Below, piece by piece: positions 5,660-8,564 of a stretch of DNA of 61,047 nt (positions within the stretch are counted from its first letter, which is position 1; each line of letters begins with the position of its first letter). The translations under genes were made by a program, and so were the position numbers. This stretch comes from Opitutus sp. (GTDB lineage: Bacteria; Verrucomicrobiota; Verrucomicrobiia; Opitutales; Opitutaceae). The notes beneath the pieces were generated by a model. It saw only the letters and a list, made by a program, of their open reading frames with translations, made no database searches and was not told where the DNA came from. The DNA is taken from NCBI GenBank assembly GCA_025361365.1, contig JANYAM010000124.1, positions 1 to 61,047 of the forward strand, written 5' to 3'.

Positions 5660-7168
5660 TCAGACGAGTTTACAGTAGTCGAGCAGGCCCTGGCGGCCAC
5701 CCTCGCGGCCGAAGCCGGACTCCTTGTAGCCGCCGAAGGGCGACGTGGGGTCGAACTTGTTGTAGGTGTTGGCCCAGACGACGCCGGCCTTGAGCTCGGT
5801 GGACATCTTCAGGATGCGCGAGCCCTTGTCGGTCCACACGCCGGCGCTGAGGCCGTAGGCGGTGTTGTTGGCCTTCTCCACCGCTTCCTCGAGCGTGCGG
5901 AACGTCAGGATGCTGAGCACCGGCCCGAAGATTTCCTCGCGGGCAATGCGGTGGCTCATCGAGACGCCGGAGAACAGCGTCGGGCGGAAATAATAGCCTT
6001 TGGTGGGCAGCTTGCAGGGCGCTTGGTAAAGCGTCGCGCCTTCCTTCACGCCGGCCGCGACGAGCCGTTCGATTGTGCCGAGCTGTTCCTTCGAGTTGAT
6101 CGCGCCGACGTCGGTGTTCTTGTCGAGCGGGTCGCCGACGCGCAGCGTCTTGAGGCGGGTTTTGAGTTTCGCAAGGATCTCGGCGGCGACGGTCTCCTGC
6201 ACGAGCAGGCGCGAGCCGGCGCAGCACACGTGGCCCTGGTTGAAGAAAATGCCGTTGATGATGCCCTCGACCGCCTGGTCGATCGGCGCGTCGTCGAACA
6301 CGATGTTCGCCGCCTTGCCGCCGAGTTCCATGGTCATCTTCTTGTCAGTGCCGGCCAGCGACCGCATGATGATCTTGCCCACCTCGGTCGAGCCGGTGAA
6401 GGCTACCTTGGCCGCGGTCGGGTGGTTCATGATCGCCGCGCCGGTGTCGCCAAAACCGGTGACGATGTTGACGACGCCCGCGGGCAGGCCGGCGTCCATG
6501 AAAATCTCGGCGAGTTTCAGCGCAGTGATGCTGGTGGTCTCGGCCGGCTTGATGACAACGGTGTTGCCCATCGCCAGCGCGGGCGCGAGCTTCCACGCCA
6601 TCATCAGCAGCGGGAAATTCCACGGGATAACCTGGCCGACGACGCCGAGCGGCGCGACCTTCCGGCCGGGCGCCACGTAGTCGAGCTTGTCGGCCCAGCC
6701 GGCGTGGTAGAAGAAATGCGCCGCGGCCATCGGGATGTCGAAATCGCGCGACTCCTTGATCGGCTTGCCGCCGTCCATCGTCTCGGCCACGGCGAACTCG
6801 CGGGCGCGGTCCTGCAGCAGGCGGGCGATGCGGTAGATGTATTTGGCGCGCTCCTTGCCGGGCATCTTGCCCCAGACATTGTCTGAGGCCTTCTTCGCCG
6901 CGGCGTAGGCGGCGTCGACATCGGCCGCGCTGCCGTGGGCGATCTCGGCGAGCTTGGATTCATTGGCCGGGTTGATGGAGTCGAAATACTTGCCGGAGGC
7001 CGGGGCGACGAACTTGCCGCCGATGAAGAGATCGTAGCGGGCCTTCAGTTTCGGGTCGGCCGTCTCCGGGGCCGGATCGTATTCCCAGAGATCACCGAAG
7101 ATCAGCTCGGGAGCAGGACGACCCAGGTGGCGCGAGGCCGGGCGTTTGTTGGCGGTCAGAGTGGGCAT
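5660..7168 (-). CDS. Aldehyde dehydrogenase, full length
   Basis: A 502-residue NAD(P)-dependent aldehyde dehydrogenase. General base Glu281 lies in MELGGK, the catalytic cysteine (Cys315) in FNQGHVCCAGSR, and there are NAD-site IPWNFP and VVIKPAE, FTGSTEVGK, EEIFGPVLS and PFGGYKESGFGREGG near the C-terminus. Next to deoC its natural job could be oxidising the acetaldehyde released by deoxyribose-phosphate cleavage, with the NAD-domain paralogue at 3332-4198 as partner. Both inferences rest on context. The start ATG has no visible Shine-Dalgarno. The GxxExxY cassette separates it from deoC. Confidence 0.95.
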   Translation of the reverse strand: MPTLTANKRPASRHLGRPAPELIFGDLWEYDPAPETADPKLKARYDLFIGGKFVAPASGKYFDSINPANESKLAEIAHGSAADVDAAYAAAKKASDNVWGKMPGKERAKYIYRIARLLQDRAREFAVAETMDGGKPIKESRDFDIPMAAAHFFYHAGWADKLDYVAPGRKVAPLGVVGQVIPWNFPLLMMAWKLAPALAMGNTVVIKPAETTSITALKLAEIFMDAGLPAGVVNIVTGFGDTGAAIMNHPTAAKVAFTGSTEVGKIIMRSLAGTDKKMTMELGGKAANIVFDDAPIDQAVEGIINGIFFNQGHVCCAGSRLLVQETVAAEILAKLKTRLKTLRVGDPLDKNTDVGAINSKEQLGTIERLVAAGVKEGATLYQAPCKLPTKGYYFRPTLFSGVSMSHRIAREEIFGPVLSILTFRTLEEAVEKANNTAYGLSAGVWTDKGSRILKMSTELKAGVVWANTYNKFDPTSPFGGYKESGFGREGGRQGLLDYCKLV

Positions 7169-7182
7169 GGAGAGAAGAGGTT

Positions 7183-7619
7183 AACCACGAATGGACACGA
7201 ATTCACACGGATGGGTCAGAGCACGATTCTCTCCCACTCCAATTTTGCGCGTTTAAAATTAAAGATCAGACCGACCCGTAGTCCGGTAATGCGCAGGTAA
7301 TTCAACATCTGCCCGCGTTCATGGTCAGTGATACGATCTATTACCTTGGCATCGATAATCACCGCATCATCTGCAATCAAATCTGGAATATACTCCCCGA
7401 CCTGACGCGCTTTAAAAAGAATCGGAAATGAGGCCTGTTGTCGAACCGCTATGCTGGAATCTTGAAAAGCCAGAACCAAGGCGTTCTCATAGGGCTTCTC
7501 GTGCAGTCCATGGCCCATCTCCTTGATCACGTCAAAGGCACACCCCACGATCCTGAACACCAGGTCGCGGTGCAGAAGGTTGTCTTCTGATTCGTGTCTA
7601 TTCGTGTCCATTCGTGGTT
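7183..7619. mobile_element. GxxExxY cassette bounded by perfect 20-bp inverted repeats
   Basis: Arms 7183-7202 and 7600-7619 are exact reverse complements (AACCACGAATGGACACGAAT). Each contains the direct sub-repeat CACGAAT, which recurs once more inside the right end. The 437-bp unit holds a single ORF (GxxExxY protein) whose start codon lies inside the right repeat. It sits between deoC and the ALDH gene, which otherwise form one gene cluster. It looks like a short mobile or domesticated cassette; no transposase is encoded. Confidence 0.6.
7216..7611 (-). CDS. GxxExxY-family protein
   Basis: A 131-residue member of the GxxExxY family, named for the motif seen here as GHGLHEKPYENAL (about residues 32-44). 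It also has the usual IADDAVIIDAKV strand pair and the C-terminal LRVGLIFNFKRAKLEWERIV. The family is thought to have a PD-(D/E)xK nuclease-like fold, but its role is unknown. The first codons (M-D-T-N-R-H-E) are encoded by the terminal inverted repeat itself, so repeat and gene are physically fused. The ORF is intact. Confidence 0.85.
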   Translation of the reverse strand: MDTNRHESEDNLLHRDLVFRIVGCAFDVIKEMGHGLHEKPYENALVLAFQDSSIAVRQQASFPILFKARQVGEYIPDLIADDAVIIDAKVIDRITDHERGQMLNYLRITGLRVGLIFNFKRAKLEWERIVL

Positions 7620-7625
7620 CTAAAA

Positions 7626-8564
7626 TCAGTAGCTTTCGGCGGCCTCGCTGAAATAATACGGGGCCTGGTAGGCGCCGGTGCGCTCCTTCTCGATCTGGCG
7701 GAGCAGGTCGTTGAGCAGCGAGGAGGCACCGAAGCGGTAGCGGGTGTTATTGAGCCACTCGTCGCCGAGCGTCTCCTTGACGGCAATGAGGAACTGGAGC
7801 GCCTGCTTGGCGGTGCGGATGCCGCCGGCGGGCTTCATCGCGATCGGCGTGCCGGTGGCGAGGTAGAAGTCGCGGATGGCCTCGATCATCACCTGGTTGT
7901 TGCCGAGCGTGGCGTTGAGCGAGGTCTTGCCGGTGCTGGTCTTGATGAAATCGTTCGGCCGCAAGACGCGCATGGCGAGGAAGGATGCGGCGCGGATGTT
8001 GTCGTAGGTCTCCAGTTCGCTGACCTCGAGGATGACCTTGAGCGTGGCCGAGCCACAGGCCTGCACCACGGCGGCGATCTCGTCCTGCACCAGCTGGAAA
8101 TCGCCGGCGAGGAACGAGCCGCGGTTGATGACCATGTCGATCTCGTCGGCACCGTCTCCGACGGCGGCCTTCACCTCGGCGAGGCGGGTCTTGAGCGGGG
8201 CCTGGCCGGACGGAAAAGCGGTGGCGACGGACGCGATGCGAACCGGTGTGTCCTCGCCCAGCGCACGGCGGGCATATTTCACCATGGCCGGATAGACGCA
8301 AACGGCGGCGACGGTCGGGACCTCGGGGTCGTCGGACGGGCTCAGCGCCTTCTGGCAGAGCGAGGCGACCTTGCCCGGGGTGTCCTTGCCCTCGAGCGTG
8401 GTGAGGTCGACCATCGAGGCGGCCAGTTTCAGGCCGAAAAGCTTCGAACCTTTCTTGATGCTGCGGGTGGTGTATTTGGCGACGCGTTCCTCGATGCCCA
8501 CCTGATCGACCGAGCCGATCTCATTGAACAAACGCCGGAATGCGGCCTGAGCAGTGCCTGTCAT
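7626..8564 (-). CDS. deoC: Deoxyribose-phosphate aldolase
   Basis: Cleaves 2-deoxyribose 5-phosphate to glyceraldehyde 3-phosphate and acetaldehyde (class I, Schiff base). Visible residues: the EIDMVINRG loop (Asp143), LKVILE (Lys176), the KTSTGK motif (Lys208) and AMKPAGGIRT. At 312 residues it is longer than the E. coli enzyme because of N- and C-terminal extensions, a form common in other phyla. It heads the minus-strand cluster. The ALDH downstream is a plausible sink for acetaldehyde. Confidence 0.95.
   Translation of the reverse strand: MTGTAQAAFRRLFNEIGSVDQVGIEERVAKYTTRSIKKGSKLFGLKLAASMVDLTTLEGKDTPGKVASLCQKALSPSDDPEVPTVAAVCVYPAMVKYARRALGEDTPVRIASVATAFPSGQAPLKTRLAEVKAAVGDGADEIDMVINRGSFLAGDFQLVQDEIAAVVQACGSATLKVILEVSELETYDNIRAASFLAMRVLRPNDFIKTSTGKTSLNATLGNNQVMIEAIRDFYLATGTPIAMKPAGGIRTAKQALQFLIAVKETLGDEWLNNTRYRFGASSLLNDLLRQIEKERTGAYQAPYYFSEAAESY

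Follow-up and report, generated by a model that had tools for sequence, protein, structure and literature searches.

The window, by which we mean the whole 61,047-nucleotide stretch of Opitutus sp. DNA that was analysed, holds a small gene of the GxxExxY family in the gap that separates deoC from an aldehyde dehydrogenase gene (Table 1). As the earlier note had recognised, the gene sits in a 437-bp unit bounded by perfect 20-bp inverted repeats: AACCACGAATGGACACGAAT occurs exactly at 7183-7202 on the forward strand and at 7600-7619 on the reverse strand. The pair is unique in the window, where no further copy was found with up to three mismatches allowed, and 100 dinucleotide shuffles gave none. 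Complementarity between the inverted arms reaches 30 bp at 90%. Each arm contains three 7-mers at a 10-bp step, and the start codon of the gene falls inside the repeat, as had been claimed. This in-arm ATG is also present in two orthologues (L078 and L079).

Table 1. Features at the deoC-aldehyde dehydrogenase intergenic site (window coordinates).
Feature	Position	Strand	Description
Aldehyde dehydrogenase gene, downstream neighbour	5660..7168	-	Same direction; best matches to individual subfamilies fall short of their curated cut-offs
Intergenic site, deoC to aldehyde dehydrogenase gene	7169..7625	.	Holds the window element
3' (downstream) arm, inverted	7183..7212	+	CACGAAT 7186-7192, CACGAAT 7196-7202, CACGGAT 7206-7212; spacers GGA, TCA
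GxxExxY gene (TIGR04256 / PF13366 PD-(D/E)XK), 131 aa	7216..7611	-	ATG within 5' arm
5' (upstream) arm	7590..7619	-	CACGAAT x3 at 7610-7616, 7600-7606, 7590-7596; spacers GGA, AGA
deoC (deoxyribose-phosphate aldolase DeoC), upstream neighbour	7626..8564	-	Same direction

We scored inverted repeats by local alignment of the upstream flank of a gene against the reverse complement of its downstream flank, and called arms at scores of at least 30. When 48 of the 50 non-overlapping ORFs of the window were scored by this test, the GxxExxY gene reached 45 and the next best gene 27, and none of the 47 other genes had arms at the threshold. The shuffles, this control and the swapped flank pairs described below rule out a chance repeat. 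No known RNA family matched positions 6900-7900 of the window at E<=1.

The GxxExxY protein

The window protein matches TIGR04256 (GxxExxY) with 117.5 bits (cut-off 35) and PF13366 (PDDEXK_3) with 108.7 bits (cut-off 22), the latter being its sole Pfam match at E<=0.001. The conserved residues of the family are E, D, [DE]xK, QxxxY and NF. In alignments of 18 and 36 sequences E, D and K are invariant, so the PD-(D/E)xK residues named in the earlier note are indeed conserved; Q and Y are nearly invariant, and a D or E precedes xK in 18 of 18 sequences (this column was read by eye). An AlphaFold2 model of the protein has a pLDDT of 93.9. In a Foldseek search of the PDB with this model the best folds were of the lambda-exonuclease/Cas4 type (probability 1.00; TM-score of about 0.5 relative to the query; the best E-value a modest 1.2e-3); no structurally solved relative was found by sequence. 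Its residues and predicted fold mark the window protein as a conserved, putative PD-(D/E)XK nuclease. Among the three orthologues at the window site (in its own genome, G018 and G009) dN/dS is 0.04-0.09 at dS 0.5-1.3, which indicates that the gene is maintained and that the insertion in the window is old.

The predicted fold is shared with PD-(D/E)XK exonucleases and Cas4 proteins such as LHK-Exo (3syy), SSO0001 (4ic1) and lambda exonuclease (3slp); unlike these relatives, the window protein stands alone, at 131 aa. It also resembles the Rpn/YhgA-like PF04754 family, PD-(D/E)XK proteins that carry transposase-like annotations (PMC5350276, PMC10327210), but it matches PF13366 and not PF04754. 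A defence gene was dismissed because neither PADLOC nor PHROGs gave a real match: PADLOC returned only weak Cas4/Cas4b hits for a homologue (L051; E 0.017/0.045) and a CARF model for the window protein (E 0.04), and PHROGs returned none. A tblastn search with L051 as its single query, which distant members may escape, found matches in 8 plasmid records out of 72,556 and in no phage record out of 50,697. Phage or plasmid cargo was dismissed on this near-absence; five further loci lie on viral contigs.

GxxExxY genes occur in 162 of 288 genomes sampled from the phylum of the window and in many other bacterial phyla and archaea. The genome of the window carries 12 of them, in line with the multiple copies per genome that had been anticipated. 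A search of open-access PMC, bioRxiv excluded, found neither a role nor an element in print for GxxExxY. Two papers there use the name, both as a passing label (PMC8934634 and PMC12085832), and one mentions PF13366, which it reports as expanded in Arctic microalgae (PMC9756366). A literature search for a GIY-YIG repeat nuclease returned nothing relevant.

Inverted arms around GxxExxY genes

Most of the 12 GxxExxY genes of the window's genome lie near an inverted repeat, the sequence of which differs at nearly every locus. Arms scoring at least 30 were present at 34 of 41 loci from this genome and its relatives (12 from its own genome and 29 from relatives, one per genome), compared with 64 of 1640 swapped flank pairs. 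The corresponding figures were 21 of 28 loci and 70 of 756 swapped pairs in the phylum sample, and 59 of 80 loci and 816 of 6320 swapped pairs in a cross-phylum set, which comprises the best 80 of a longer list and is therefore not a random sample. The swapped-pair controls are inflated because one grammar is common to all the elements. Taken together, inverted arms flank 114 of 149 GxxExxY loci, the other 35 scoring below 30 and having no clear arms by that measure; the earlier note had let its proposal stand or fall by comparable repeats around most homologues, and most of those examined have them. Armed loci outside the phylum include members of Anaerolineae (L136, score 40), Planctomycetes (L137, 45), Acidobacteria (L144, 46), Betaproteobacteria (L146, 40), Leptolyngbyaceae (L191, 46), Saprospiraceae (L182, 89) and Methanosarcinales (L185, 38). 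At the Methanothrix locus L152 no arms were found (score 17).

The arms share a grammar of approximately CRCNRAN repeated three times per side, with unit steps of 8-11 bp. The most frequent cores are CACAGAG, CACGGAG, CACGAAG, CGCAGAG and CGCAAAG. A loose finder of three plus three units detected arrays at 120 of 149 loci. Since all elements follow one grammar, it also reported them for 335 of 443 swapped pairs, but agreement among the six units was 0.92 in real pairs against 0.84 in swapped pairs. A strict finder located three-unit arrays on both sides at 100 of 149 loci. In 84 of these 100 the unit spacings are identical on the left and the right, against a mean of 17.5 and a maximum of 30 after shuffling. 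The inverted-arm architecture is therefore family-wide for GxxExxY loci.

Genes of a second family, the TIGR02436 four-helix-bundle genes (L220-L249, in relatives), also lie between inverted, element-specific tandem arrays. From a set of 30 such loci, of which 4 were not located, 15 of the 26 located score at least 30, against 22 of 650 swapped pairs. By eye, their grammar has mostly a period of about 7-8 bp (AGTTGAG, AGTAGCG, AGGAGTC, TAAGCTT). CRC arrays occur at 2 of 24 TIGR02436 loci (24 of the 30 entered the strict-array count) and at 100 of 149 GxxExxY loci, so the grammar tracks the protein family.

The five GxxExxY loci on viral contigs (L215-L219) vary in their flanks. L218 and L219, identical over the stretch compared, are flanked by inverted arrays of a ACTTAAAATTT-like word with a score of 112; L216 scores 88, L217 only 26, and L215 46 with arms resembling CACAAAG/CACGAAG. 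At G039:C73:118563-120205 the arms are tandemly repeated at steps of about 110 bp on both sides of the GxxExxY gene.

We compared arm type with protein phylogeny in the genus. A sample of 76 loci was reduced to 65 genes after removal of 3 without the motif, 5 short rows from the hemL site and 3 untyped rows. On the resulting protein tree the 21 arm types, which were named by hand, not blind and after the tree had been viewed, require 22 changes, close to the minimum of 20 and far from the mean of 52 (lowest 48) in 300 shuffles. The genome label is unclustered on the same tree (51 changes against a shuffled mean of 48): the genes of a single genome are spread over it, and most of them have the arms typical of the clade they fall in. 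Protein distance and 7-mer distance are also correlated in a Mantel test that ignores kinship, both over the 95 of 120 armed loci that passed limits on agreement and length (r=0.46, 0 of 5000 permutations as high) and over the 56 cross-phylum loci alone (r=0.17, 26 of 5000). At 36 of the 95 loci the core is identical to that of the closest protein, where 13% would be expected. Same-type gene duplicates occur in 2 of 63 genome-by-arm-type combinations in the genus, both of which lump two spacings; the genus genes are partly covered in this count (for instance none from G019, G002, G005, G007 or G013, 6 of 8 in G011 and 5 of 9 in G010). Arm type is thus inherited with the protein lineage and not with the genome. 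Gene and arms form one unit, and joint vertical descent is sufficient to explain their covariation.

Site occupancy and gene-less hairpins

Both flanks of the window site are present in 20 genomes of the genus, including that of the window. The site is full in three (the window's own genome, G018 and G009). In G012, the sister of the window's genome (100/98 support), it holds a gene-less CACGAAT hairpin in the opposite orientation; derivation of this hairpin by internal deletion is not supported, as its inner spacers are oppositely oriented. The site is empty in G010, G006 and G019, where 7-9 bp separate the neighbouring genes, and in G008 it measures 18 bp; the empty-site alleles that the earlier note had proposed to look for in sister strains do exist. 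A decayed arm with a different core is found in G003, other hairpins or inserts in G014, G017, G020, G016 and G011, and no arms in G015, G004, G013, G007, G005 and G002. At the window site the gene is old and vertically inherited, and it is the hairpins that form the multicopy part.

Two further sites are similarly polymorphic. At mutL (L006), G000, G010 and G008 have the full element, several genomes have next to nothing, and G012 has a solo CACTAAT arm together with another hairpin. The element found at hemL (L005) is of the CGCTAAT type in G000 and G001 and of the CACTAAT type in G012, G011, G020, G017, G004 and G015. A switch between these two types in place was rejected, since the protein tree joins L426 and L415 with L005 and L288 and leaves the CACTAAT gene L285 outside. 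Replacement by a sister lineage is the likelier account for hemL, because the CGCTAAT genes from other loci (L426 and L415) group with L005 and L288. With flanks only 72-95% identical, none of the deoC, mutL and hemL sites revealed a target-site duplication, and there was no sign of a recent jump.

Other observations at these sites concern a nested element and further repeats. In G014 a CACTGAT-type GxxExxY element at hemL (L290) lies within the start of an older CGCTAAT-type element, the remainder of which is gone. The hemL gap in G010, G016 and G003 (L291, L292 and L296) contains a further repeat, in which CCTATA recurs roughly every 10 bp (an example is CCTATAAG). In other species these intergenic sites hold a different hairpin family, built around GGATCCTTCGCTGCGCTCAGGATGAC (L085, L086, L088 and L253).

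Gene-less hairpins are multicopy. Arms of the pattern ACCACDRAD..CACDRAD..CACDRAD were found in 39 of 57 genomes, at 0-196 per genome, whereas the reversed pattern used as a control matched once in total. Of the 15 genomes without a GxxExxY match, 13 have no pattern arms, the exceptions being G006 (51 arms; 86% complete) and G034 (one arm). Pattern arms are present in 37 of the 42 genomes with a GxxExxY gene; G002, G005, G007, G013 and G047 have a gene and zero arms of the CAC pattern searched. Ten places in G012 (L310-L319) were viewed in full, and all are short inverted pairs with no gene inside. The loops of nine G012 hairpins are mutually unrelated (mean pair score 10.4 against 9.8 for shuffled loops), which sets the gene-less hairpins apart from ordinary deletion derivatives and likens them to REPINs. 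At eight G012 hairpin sites examined by eye in G000, a hairpin of another family was present in six and none in two, a reuse of sites above the expectation for random insertion.

Hairpin abundance tends to follow the cognate gene. In six genomes the gene at hemL is of the CACTAAT type, and these have 93, 50, 35, 32, 26 and 11 CACTAAT arms (the gene's own arms included), and 15 other genomes have 39, 20, 17, 11, 10, 7, 7, 4, 3, 2, 1, 0, 0, 0 and 0 (p=0.0015, Mann-Whitney, kinship ignored); this agrees in rank with a prior prediction that the six would have the most, with the qualification that the genes of the 15 genomes are only partly covered, so that absence of a cognate CACTAAT gene is partly assumed. 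For CACGAAT and CGCTAAT the association gave p 0.0003 and p 0.017, respectively, from BLAST arm counts corrected by hand for the genes' own arms and with kinship ignored. CGCTAAT arms also occur in G011, G018, G010 and G008, which have no CGCTAAT gene among the genes covered. G016, a complete genome, has 39 CACTAAT arms and a sole GxxExxY gene of CACGGAA type, so its hairpins are orphans. Overall, gene-less hairpins tend to peak where the cognate gene is present, although G016 and others depart from this.

Hairpins are on average closer to the gene arms of their own genome than to those of others (a value this high arose in 5 of 20000 label shuffles, and in 13 of 20000 when G012 was left out). 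The set of 23 hairpins used includes several without GxxExxY grammar and one, L322, in which the wrong palindrome was picked and still counted. The own genome ranked top for only 5 of the 23, because several genomes have arm types in common. Individual idiosyncrasies are also shared: a G009 hairpin reproduces the odd middle unit CACCAAA of the G009 gene arms, and the aberrant G018 hairpin TCAGGAA matches the G018 gene L403.

At one hairpin site (L315) the loops are related between genomes (G000-G018, 0 of 2000 shuffles as high; G000-G017, 4 of 2000; G018-G017, 0 of 2000). The G012 loop shows no clear kinship with the others, as a weakly suggested link fails once arm letters are removed (1009, 80 and 33 of 2000). 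The right-arm spacers TGA and GAA are common to G000, G018 and G017, and the core in every right-arm unit, bar single odd bases, is CGCTAAT in G000 and G018 but CACTAAT in G017. At this one site, the change of core with kept spacers is not explained by simple insertion. Insertional replacement and whole-arm gene conversion would both bring other spacers.

Possible roles of the nuclease and its arms

The closest known parallel is the RAYT/REP/REPIN system, in which, according to parts of PMC2817692 and PMC3116915, a gene lies between two inverted cognate repeats, protein and repeats co-evolve, gene presence goes with repeat abundance, and gene-less inverted doublets with spacers form hairpins. 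RAYTs themselves are relatives of the IS200/IS605 tyrosine transposases. The GxxExxY system likewise has a gene between inverted cognate repeats, co-evolution of gene and repeat, few genes with many hairpins, and gene-less inverted doublets with variable loops. For three arm families repeat abundance leans in the expected direction, towards genomes with the gene, but G016 and others do not conform and the genes were only partly covered. Unlike RAYTs, GxxExxY is a PD-(D/E)XK nuclease without a match to the HuH (Y1) transposase domain, and unlike REPs, which are single palindromes, its arms are three iterated 7-mers at 8-11-bp steps. The logic is that of RAYTs but the enzyme is unrelated, which makes the GxxExxY system REPIN-like in its working and not a member of the REPINs.

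MITEs of ordinary insertion sequences are short, gene-less and have the same ends as the gene-bearing element. GxxExxY hairpins resemble MITEs in these respects and differ from them in that their loops are unrelated between copies, their arms are iterated and no target-site duplication was seen.

On balance, the window unit is probably a member of an undescribed family of nuclease-hairpin elements with REPIN/RAYT-like logic and an unrelated nuclease. GxxExxY would be a small PD-(D/E)XK endonuclease that recognises the tandem 7-mers in the pair of inverted arms around its gene, as well as the matching arms of gene-less hairpins elsewhere in the genome. Cutting at the arms could lead to the copying or retention in the chromosome of its own gene and, above all, of the short hairpins, which repair or replication after cutting would spread, much as RAYT transposases presumably do with REPs and REPINs. 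We favour cutting followed by repair or replication because it would account for the multicopy hairpins, their tie to the cognate gene and the polymorphic sites. In this scheme binding to the arms, cleavage and mobilisation in trans are putative activities. The gene itself may be expressed by read-through from the flanking operon, since the start codon in the window lies in an arm and the genes are mostly co-directional with both neighbours. The model builds on what is observed directly: matched iteron arms, lineage-bound arm types, multicopy hairpins that are on average more numerous alongside the cognate gene, site polymorphism, intact catalytic residues and purifying selection. Several observations weigh against it: no target-site duplication or recent jump came to light, the window insertion is old, hairpins and cognate genes match only loosely, the L315 cores differ within kept spacers, sites are reused more than expected, and 35 of the 149 loci have no clear arms.

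The co-directional bias points to read-through expression and, perhaps, to a role at the RNA level, which is the main rival. Both neighbours run in the direction of the GxxExxY gene at 45 of 54 loci and both oppose it at 4 of 54, neighbour direction being assigned by an ORF heuristic that gave no verdict, or had no neighbour to call, at 76 of 130 loci. Here the hairpins would be stable operon-internal RNA or DNA sites serving a host function, for example intercistronic mRNA processing, and GxxExxY their resident site-specific nuclease or binder; nothing would move, and the arms would change unit by unit while keeping their match to the resident protein. The related loops and kept TGA and GAA spacers of L315 around either a CGCTAAT or a CACTAAT core fit such a function, as do the purifying selection on the window-site orthologues and the near-absence of the family from plasmids and phages (one query). 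However, close relatives do without the hairpins, their orthologous gaps being empty; arm counts range from 0 to 196 across the 57 genomes, and in L290 an element has inserted into the beginning of another element's coding sequence. We consider a pure host function rather unlikely.

It is also unlikely, and slightly more so, that GxxExxY is a passenger merely caught between arms that another agent makes and spreads, whether an unknown transposase or slippage with template switching at quasi-palindromes. The unrelated loops of the gene-less hairpins and the genomes with arms and no cognate gene would follow from such an agent, and slippage with template switching would also homogenise units and arms inside one element. 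Yet arm type tracks the protein tree and not the genome, TIGR02436 genes in the same genomes mostly have a different grammar, and a purely local process would not yield one 7-mer at dozens of places per genome. The earlier note had envisaged an autonomous minimal transposon, with the gene-bearing 437-bp form itself jumping. The full, gene-less and empty alleles at a single site, the 12 gene copies in the window's genome and the nested element in L290 are all compatible with this, but same-type duplicates are rare among the genes covered (2 of 63 combinations of genome and type), genes from any single genome fall in many parts of the protein tree, and the three full copies at the window site are orthologous and old. 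We therefore regard the jumping gene as very unlikely. What survives of the mobile or selfish cassette are repeats bound to the element, many gene copies per genome, empty alleles and conserved nuclease residues; the gene, at its one old site under purifying selection, does not look like one that hops freely, and the multicopy part is the gene-less hairpin with the same arms. A nuclease with cognate hairpins and putative movement, on the RAYT/REPIN pattern, comes nearer than a hopping cassette.

A broader version of the nuclease-hairpin model is possible, and we put it forward tentatively. Stand-alone PD-(D/E)XK proteins with an iteron code could constitute a new class of selfish or domesticated element that multiplies gene-less hairpins and rewrites their 7-mers in place, unit by unit, as the resident nuclease changes, with other codes in TIGR02436 and viral GxxExxY loci. 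If the arms are the targets of the nuclease, the GxxExxY family gains a function and many scattered intergenic repeats gain an owner. A natural protein-DNA recognition code would then be readable from the 21 hand-named arm types of one genus and the protein clades to which they are matched. If the nuclease-hairpin model is true, hairpin systems of the REPIN kind have had more than one origin, with nucleases that are not related to each other. In G021 a single identical arm, ACCACGGATTACACAAATAACACGGAT, is present at eight places and offers a good target for recent copies.
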